From: Mugil cephalus
Lineage: Eukaryota; Chordata; Actinopteri; Mugiliformes; Mugilidae
Assembly: GCF_022458985.1 (NCBI RefSeq)
Contig: NC_061771.1
Span: 11,100,501 to 11,164,500, forward strand
DNA: 64,000 nucleotides
Reading direction: 5' to 3'
Shown: one piece after another, positions 12,401-15,400 of the stretch
Numbering within the stretch: the stretch's first letter is position 1
Layout of the letters: each line of letters opens with the position of its first letter
Notes under the pieces: model-generated
Databases searched by the model: none
Told to the model about the DNA's origin: nothing
The model's input: only the letters and a program-made list of their open reading frames with translations
Program-made: the position numbers and the translations under genes

Positions 12401-15400
12401 TAGAAGTGAAAAAAAAAAAAAAAGAATAATATAGAATAGTACCAATAGTTGGTCTCAGTTAAAGATGTATTCTCCGTTGAAATAGCTGACTTTGTCTTCA
12501 AAGTCAGTGTGGTCAGTAAATAGAAGAACAATATAGTACATGATAATATAATTTAATATCTTAACTCAATAATCAGTGGTGTGAATAAGCCTCAACAAAT
12601 TAAATGGTGTTTGTCCTTATTGACGATATTGTTTCAGTTTTTATCCAAGTTGCTGTTGTACAGAGCCAGCCCAGTGTAAATATTTCATTATTTTGCTACT
12701 TAACAAACTGCACCGTGCTTCATTTTACAGTACATGAGTTTGTGAGCAGAGCTGCATGATAAACAGAGTTTCTCTCCCATTTCTGTCTTTTTAGTGGTGT
12801 GGTTCTGTTTAAACATCGTTCTCTTTTCTCTCTGTCTGTTTTGCTGTTTCTGTCATTCTCGAGTCATTATTTCGTTATATTGGAAGTTAAAGCTACATTA
12901 AGTTTTTTTCAAGACATCACGAACAACATGAACAGCTGAAAGGGGCCTCATTGACTCCCTGTCCCTGCACATCCACATGCAGCGTGTAGTTCATCTGTTG
13001 ATACGTTGCATGTCGAACGGTTCACTGAGTTGTCATTTGATGAAACCTTTGCCAGTTTTGACTGAAGTGCCATTAAACCGCACTGTCAGGTCTTTAACAG
13101 GTCAGGTGATGTTAGGGCTTTAGTCTGTGTGACAACATCCTGGAAAAGCGAAATTATTTTTACCCAAAGTCACTTGTGCTGCTGGTCAACCTGTTTTCCA
13201 GAAGCTTGTGTCTTGTTTTGTCACACACCTGCCTTCACGAAAGCCAGTCCTGAGTACCTGAGGGACACGCAGTGTGTGTTTTCAGGATTAGTAAAAGTCT
13301 GTCTTCCTTCCTGAATAGTCCTCAACTCAATGAGATATGAGGAGCACAGTGCAAAATTACTGTTCACTGGAAATCTACTGAAGTTCAACAGCAGATAGTA
13401 AGAGATCCAAGAATGGCCCAGATGACGTATACGCACACAATATAACATATTTAATAATTTGTCATCATCATAATTTGCCCCTACCTTCTTTTAGTGAAGT
13501 CACCAAATTCTGGATACAATGTATTTGATGGGGCAGCACAGTGGTTCAGTGGTTAGCACTGATCCTTCACAGCAAAGAAGGTTGTGGTTCTCCGTCTTCC
13601 TCCCAGAGACACGTTCGTTGGCTGTATTCGTGACTCTAAACTTCCTGTAGGTGAACATGTGAGCGTGAATGGCTGTTTGTCTCTGTGTGTTAACTAGGGA
13701 TGATCAGATTTGAGTTTGTGAAAAAGTGGACCCTTCAGTGGACGGGACGCACAGAGAAACACAACGCAAATTTTATATAAACATGTTATGTTGAGTTTGA
13801 AATAGTTTAAAAGTTTGAGTTTGACACATTTTTAGGTCTCAGGAAGAGGACACGTCCAGGAGAAAGAGGACGTCTGGTCGCCCTAGTGTTGACCCTGTCC
13901 AGGGTGTACCACGCTTCTCACCCAATGGAAACTTTGATAGGAATAATCATATGTGCATAAATTATACGTAACACCGTAGTAGTATTTAGACAATTGTTGA
14001 ATAATTACAGTGAATTAATCTGCTGCTGGCAATAATGGCTGAAACCATCCAACACATGGAAGCTTGTATTCATTTTTTACAGTGTTTTTGTTCCTGTCTT
14101 CTGTTTTTTTTTAGAAATTTTGTTAATTACGTGTTGATGTTCCAATCTTTTTACGTTGAGATGTTTCGTTAAGACAAACAGTGCATGCTGTTAAGCTAAG
14201 GTGCATACCAGTAGAAGGACTGACACTGTCGACAAATGTACTACTAACAGCCACTGTGTTCATGTAGAAATGCGGTGAACCTGGCGGTGTTAAAGTTGAA
14301 CGAGCAGGGGCTGCTGGACAAACTGAAAAACAAGTGGTGGTATGACAAGGGAGAATGCGGCAGCGGCGGAGGGGAGAGCAAGGTTAATACACACACACTC
14401 ACACATGTGCAGTATGTACACACTACGCATAACAATGGGATCTTGAATTTAAAAATGTAATGAGGCAGCACCTACGCAAACACTTCCAGATCAAGGTCAG
14501 GTAACCTAACACCAACGCAGGCTAGGAGCTGCTGAGGAGTGTTTGCAACTTTGTCAAAACTGCGTTTATCTATGACTCTGCCTTGGAGGAGTACCGCTGC
14601 TGAAAAGGCAGAACGGCTTGTCATTGCAGTGCCTCTCATTCTCTGTCTCAGGGGCCAAACAGAGATGACCTGACAACACAGCTTTAGTCTAATTAATCAG
14701 CCACGTAGCTCGGTTAATGCTCCACGAAGACTCCCTGGATACTGCAATGATCTCCACAAAAACCTTAGTATTTAAGAGAGAAATGACGCAAACCTCAGCT
14801 TTAATGTTGAATCATTAACCGTAGATGAGGTTTTATGCTAACAACAGTGTTAGTGGGTTCTGTCTTGGTCGCTAGACCAGAGTATGAGAGCTGCTGCCTC
14901 ATTAATAACATAAGATAACATTGATAATGATGTTATTTATGTTATTCCCATTGAAGAGTGCCCGTAAACGTTGCCGTATTGAAACTGAATGAGCAAGGGA
15001 CCCTAGACAAGATGAGAAACAAGTGGTGGTACGATAGAGGAGAGTGAGGCTTCACCGACTCCACCGACAAGGTTAGTTTCATGTCTGTGGGTCGATCAAA
15101 CGCACTGTCTGTTCACACCGATACTGTCAACTTGTGGTTGGATCAACCAGGACGCATGTTAATACCGGGTCTGGAAGGTCCAGAGATGTGTTTACAACAA
15201 CCATGCATTACATACACAGCCACATTTGCTGTTACATGGGATGACAGAGGAGACGACAATGTCTGCACACTAAGTCTTTTTGGTGGGGTGGCATGCTGAG
15301 TCCAGAAAGTTTTTTTGTTGTTGTTGTTGTTGTAGTTTTTGTTTATTTTCCTCCTCATTTTGGAGGGTTTAGGCATGTTGGTTGCACCGATGACGTTTGC

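Follow-up and report, generated by a model that had tools for sequence, protein, structure and literature searches.

Has this GluA2 gene lost one half of its flip/flop alternative, and if so, did the flip exon lose its coding role, its splicing signals, or both? The flip/flop alternative is a textbook splice switch, kept in mammalian GRIA1-4 and in the four fully readable sister genes of this fish's genome, and the original prediction held that the flip exon of the gene described here is broken, leaving a flop-only AMPA receptor. The stretch of DNA that was analyzed (64,000 nucleotides; hereafter, the window) covers the greater part of a gria2 gene (+ strand), with exons matched between 412 and 17224 (tblastn, typed rat GluA2); the first exons lie outside the window, and intactness of the gene refers to the part seen. 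In the same search, no stops were found within the matched exons except in flip, and two '*' in the alignments correspond to positions preceding acceptor sites. Three features place the gene with GluA2: the best solved-structure match for its LBD/TM part is Glutamate receptor 2 (joined exon pieces, with the Q/R exon omitted), the Q/R site is occupied by R, and the tail aligns to the typed GluA2-long tail. Within the part seen, the gene is an intact gria2 (GluA2) paralogue, and the fish is teleost-like, as judged from its genome size and the doubling of its AMPA genes. The exons on which the question turns are the following:

10399..10646, + strand: exon preceding flip and flop; contains KPCDTMK and ends in the R/G codon AG/A
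14268..14382, + strand: flop exon, intact, 115 nt, exact limits
14957..15071, + strand: flip exon; no longer able to code, with its length, phase, and splice borders retained
15045..15047, + strand: TGA stop, in frame, in place of flip's conserved cysteine codon
16765..16899, + strand: M4 exon, intact
17090..17224, + strand: last coding exon; its tail is GluA2-long-like and closes with SMTDLS before the stop

Elsewhere, the window harbors one open frame with many C2H2 zinc fingers (24335-25510, +), exons of a SARAF-like gene (28650-29529, −; two pieces match Pfam PF06682, one of them above the cut-off), a tRNA-Asp (gtc) gene (30314-30387, +), and an ankyrin-repeat exon of a further gene (41819-42160, +).

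The two alternative exons are arranged as in the GRIA1-4 system: two 115-nt exons (for flip, the length given for human as well; PMC8257547), flop first and then flip, with identical phase and borders. The flip exon, located between flop and M4, has retained the length, phase, and splice borders that were predicted for it, with a reading frame that starts after one phase base, the acceptor tgaag/A, and the donor AAG/gttagt. What it lacks is an open reading frame with the LBD-disulfide cysteine: the TGA had been predicted to fall on the conserved flip cysteine, and it was read there both in the exon translation and in a position check. We take the replaced cysteine to be part of the LBD disulfide, and its partner to be the cysteine of KPCDTMK in the preceding exon. 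The flop exon, also predicted to be intact, is open and identical to the typed rat GluA2 flop at 37/38 positions; it is nearly identical to the mammalian flop of the GRIA1-4 system, and the difference from that system resides in flip, which has no coding capacity here, with the full subunit obtained from flop only. No second flip copy was found within the window (tblastn), no relatives were confirmed in viral and bacterial collections, and loss of flip in a GluA2 gene was not reported in the titles or abstract beginnings searched. Decay of the whole gene (a pseudogene) was rejected for the part in the window, given that the other matched exons are without stops and flop is conserved. We consider it probable that, as far as protein is concerned, this GluA2 gene is flop-only, with a flip that has lost its coding role and kept its splicing signals.

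The stop codon is accompanied by divergence throughout the exon. The flip differs from rat GluA2 flip at 12/38 positions, the mutual differences among mammalian GluA1-4 flips being 1-3 positions, and 10 of the 34 positions alike in all four mammalian flips are changed. This divergence exceeds that of the six other LBD/TM exons (12/38 vs. 23/356; Fisher 2e-5) and that of flop (12/38 vs. 1/38; p = 0.0014). The assertion that the changes fall at otherwise invariant residues was upheld for L5V, L19M, K20R, and K27R, which hit residues alike in 8/8 intact flips (four mammalian and four from the fish's own genome), but not for S>N, one of the 12 differences, which cannot by itself be counted as damage, given that N is also present in the two intact gria1-like flips of the same genome.

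The fish's own genome (634,849,253 bases in 24 contigs, with the window on C2) provided a control. A genome search with mammalian flip returned 19 matches, comprised of seven flop-type and five flip-type AMPA exons as well as seven weak matches (E 0.011-0.17) that are probably other glutamate receptors. Four of the five flip-type exons found genome-wide are open (two gria1-like and two gria4-like), and only the one in the window has a stop. Seven loci were examined, chosen by match and place among the 53 Lig_chan matches listed; in six of them flop and M4 exons of AMPA genes are present, and by tail and flip resemblance these six genes form three pairs (gria1-like, gria3-like, and gria4-like). 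Both gria3-like flips have the flip-like end ECGTKDSGSK and are only partly readable (adjacent letters are N); they were left out of the controls and counted as unread. A tblastn hint that flip had been lost in both gria3-like genes was rejected, as these flip-exon ends are present beside the N letters. The exception among the seven loci, near 4.00 Mb on C5, belongs to a second gria2-like gene. Its earlier exons are present and encode R at the Q/R position, but the assembly yielded no flop, flip, or M4 exon for it, and the seven flops and seven M4 exons found genome-wide all belong to the other seven AMPA genes. One run of exactly 5000 N, probably an assembly gap, lies within 70 kb downstream. 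For want of these three exons, the second gria2-like gene is not usable for flip comparison. A separate observation concerns the two intact gria1-like flips: at the Ser/Asn site linked to modulator preference (PMC12250081), both carry the residue typical of flop, N, which may bring the flip and flop forms of GluA1 closer together in this fish.

Loss of constraint was assessed through private changes, defined as differences of the window at positions shared by the four intact flips that are readable in full. Of these, the window flip carries 11 that are nonsynonymous and 2 that are synonymous, which fits the ratio expected under neutrality, about 3.1:1 (binomial p 0.75). The four intact flips, each compared against the four others, sum to 1:4 (Fisher 0.022 vs. 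the window flip) and, each compared against the other three intact flips only, to 2:14 (Fisher 1.5e-4 vs. the window flip). Differences within pairs are 0 nonsynonymous to 11 synonymous for the gria4-like flips, and 3 to 12 for the gria1-like flips. For the window flop, the private changes are 0 nonsynonymous and 4 synonymous; nonsynonymous private changes also number 2 in each of two further flops (gria4 on C15, 2:0; gria1 on C15, 2:1), and small private counts are accordingly subject to noise. The stop base of the TGA is not among the 13 private changes of the window flip, and the loss of constraint therefore stands independently of the TGA. These comparisons show that, among the readable flips, the window's alone has lost protein-level constraint, with no trace of purifying selection on the protein, while flop and the remaining LBD/TM exons of the gene are conserved.

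The order in which the exon decayed can be approached from the kinds of changes that it carries. Starting from mammalian flip, two base changes are required in 6 of the 12 codons that differ (P about 0.001), and four of those six are within codons 32-37; with these codons left out the excess of two-base codons vanishes (P 0.12), and outside them 7/7 missense changes are conservative (P 0.012), the split at codons 32-37 having been chosen after seeing the data. The two-base codons and the conservative missense changes argue against plain neutral decay from a mammal-like flip, and the pattern suggests that part of the divergence arose while the exon was still coding, with the stop appearing late. 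In the damaged flip linker (15051-15068), at codons 32-37, there are two adjoining, near-identical nine-base units, TTCACCGAC and TCCACCGAC, which are perhaps a local copying event.

The sequence comes from one assembly, and the TGA at 15045-15047 might reflect an error or a null allele that segregates. The exon would then code for a divergent working flip, as the single base that separates TGA from a cysteine codon and the conservative missense changes outside codons 32-37 would allow. We regard this as improbable, since the stop base is no part of the 11:2 pattern, which shows lost constraint on its own, and four changes fall at residues alike in all of the intact flips. The exact placement of TGA on a cysteine codon would likewise accord with UGA being read as selenocysteine in place of the cysteine, but a match to a SECIS family is absent in 17100-27000, even at E up to 10, and the other coding changes in flip would be left unexplained; we rejected this reading, which has virtually no probability.

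Outside the coding sequence, the evidence points to signals that were retained, among them a predicted structure in the intron between flop and flip:

14904..14946, + strand: intronic hairpin; left arm 14904-14921, loop 14922-14929, right arm 14930-14946

The arms of this hairpin (left, AATAACATAARATAACAT; right, ATGTTATTTATGTTATT) form 17-18 pairs with one bulge, and it ends 10-39 nt upstream of flip. It is present in all six AMPA genes that are readable there (the window gria2, both gria1-like, both gria4-like, and one gria3-like gene), with near-invariant arms, loops that vary, and folding z-scores of −3.1 to −6.9. A pattern made from the inner part of the hairpin (seven left-arm letters, the loop, and the whole right arm) matched six times in the readable 635-Mb genome, every time before one of the six AMPA flips, and the pattern read backwards had 0 matches in the readable genome. 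Because the arms hardly vary, the pairing is predicted rather than proved by covariation. In the window, the arms are unchanged at 34/34 positions that agree in the other five genes, in comparison with 13 changes in 84 exon positions (Fisher 0.019); the arms were kept while the exon changed, and thus the splicing signal outlasted the protein constraint. A competing nine-base partner for the arms near flop was not found in the window, gria4 on C9, or gria1 on C5; such words occur near flop in gria4 on C15 (one), gria1 on C15 (one), and gria3 on C15 (four), with no shared place. Rfam matches in 5500-17100 were all below gathering scores. The hairpin is a candidate cis-element for flip choice, the regulation of which was called unknown in 2021 (PMC8257547).

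The splice sites themselves were also retained. Flip scores 6.0 at the acceptor and 8.4 at the donor, against 2.8 and 4.6 for flop, using consensus matrices typed from recall. The acceptor end gaag is common to all six flips compared, and the donor gttagt in the window is one base apart from the gtcagt of the other five. Under neutrality, neither the kept splice dinucleotides (P about 0.5) nor the lack of indels in flip (P about 0.05-0.15, with indel rates assumed) would be rare.

Four mRNAs were assembled in silico from these exons. The mRNA with flop is open to its end, and with the stop in flip this bears out the prediction that the gene can encode only a flop protein. With the last exon taken as starting at 17090, the distance from the stop to the last junction is 159 nt for flip alone, 214 nt for both exons, and 101 nt for neither, and all three of these mRNAs pass the 50-nt rule for nonsense-mediated decay as used in PMC13078869. 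For flip, the stop 159 nt before the last junction leads to a prediction of nonsense-mediated decay. Flop-choosing transcripts would yield receptor subunits with flop gating, and transcripts choosing flip, both, or neither would meet an early stop, lack M4, and undergo nonsense-mediated decay. The former choice between flip and flop would now be a choice between productive and unproductive splicing in this gene.

Whether that choice is put to use is a further question, and the original prediction had raised the prospect of a poison exon that lowers expression. The geometry agrees with such a role: with flip included, the stop precedes the last exon junction by more than 50 nt, the flip splice sites outscore those of flop, the exact length of 115 nt is retained, and the splicing signals (hairpin arms and splice borders) are conserved, as judged among the paralogues of one genome only. 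There is also a mammalian likeness at the same place in the same gene, where GRIA2 has a developmentally regulated poison exon, 14N, beside flip/flop (PMC13078869), and where double inclusion of flip and flop is likewise an event leading to nonsense-mediated decay (PMC8257547); the resemblance is one of unproductive splicing, which is predicted here. In mammals, however, exon 14N is a separate exon upstream of an intact flip/flop pair, and double inclusion involves both exons together, whereas in the window gene flip itself carries the stop. Regulated inclusion of flip, selected as an off-switch for GluA2 through nonsense-mediated decay in the cells or stages that follow the flip program, is a tentative reading that we consider unlikely: the changes in the exon look neutral rather than selected, the splice dinucleotides and the lack of indels are no rarity under neutrality, and the hairpin may persist just to prevent flip use or through recent loss.

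There is roughly an even chance that the exon is recently dead, unused and drifting, with its splice signals and hairpin as relics. The private changes are near the neutral ratio, and 1 stop among 12 changed codons is as expected (mean 0.84-0.89), although the fully unchanged hairpin arms and the splice sites that score above those of flop speak against it. The hairpin might have been kept in one of three ways: to hold flip back for flop use, to allow flip inclusion to lower GluA2 in some cells, or through recency of the loss.

The loss of flip coding was also said to combine with a hard-coded Q/R arginine, giving a subunit that has lost two layers of RNA-level regulation. Two features bear on this claim:

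6568..6570, + strand: Q/R-site codon CGA in the M2 pore exon, a genomically encoded arginine
10645..10685, + strand: predicted R/G-editing hairpin, spanning the exon-intron border

The claim goes too far, as the Q/R arginine is a known lineage trait, and the R/G site and flip splicing signals remain. A chromosomally encoded Q/R arginine has been described in teleost gria2 (PMC4018279); both the CGA here and the R of the second gria2-like gene resemble it, no difference is seen from that description, and the trait is ordinary for derived teleosts. At the R/G site, the A at 10645 is kept as the last but one base of its exon, its position in mammals as well (PMC8257547). Folding z-scores for the R/G hairpin are −2.38 (10636-10690), −0.89 (10630-10700), and −1.38 (10615-10715), notable with one of the three borders, and R/G editing of this gene is possible on the basis of the predicted fold. 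Because the flip splicing signals remain, RNA-level control may have changed in meaning rather than gone.

In this gene, the loss of the flip protein with retention of its splicing signals separates the coding of an exon from its selection, and a hairpin found only before AMPA flips in this genome offers a concrete candidate for how flip is chosen. It is rather doubtful, but conceivable, that in this lineage the GluA2 flip/flop switch, once kinetic, now controls expression, with flip chosen via the hairpin. If so, the hairpin would be the cis-element behind flip choice, flip-choosing cells would be left without this gene's GluA2, with a shift toward calcium-permeable receptors, and flop-choosing cells would have fast GluA2.
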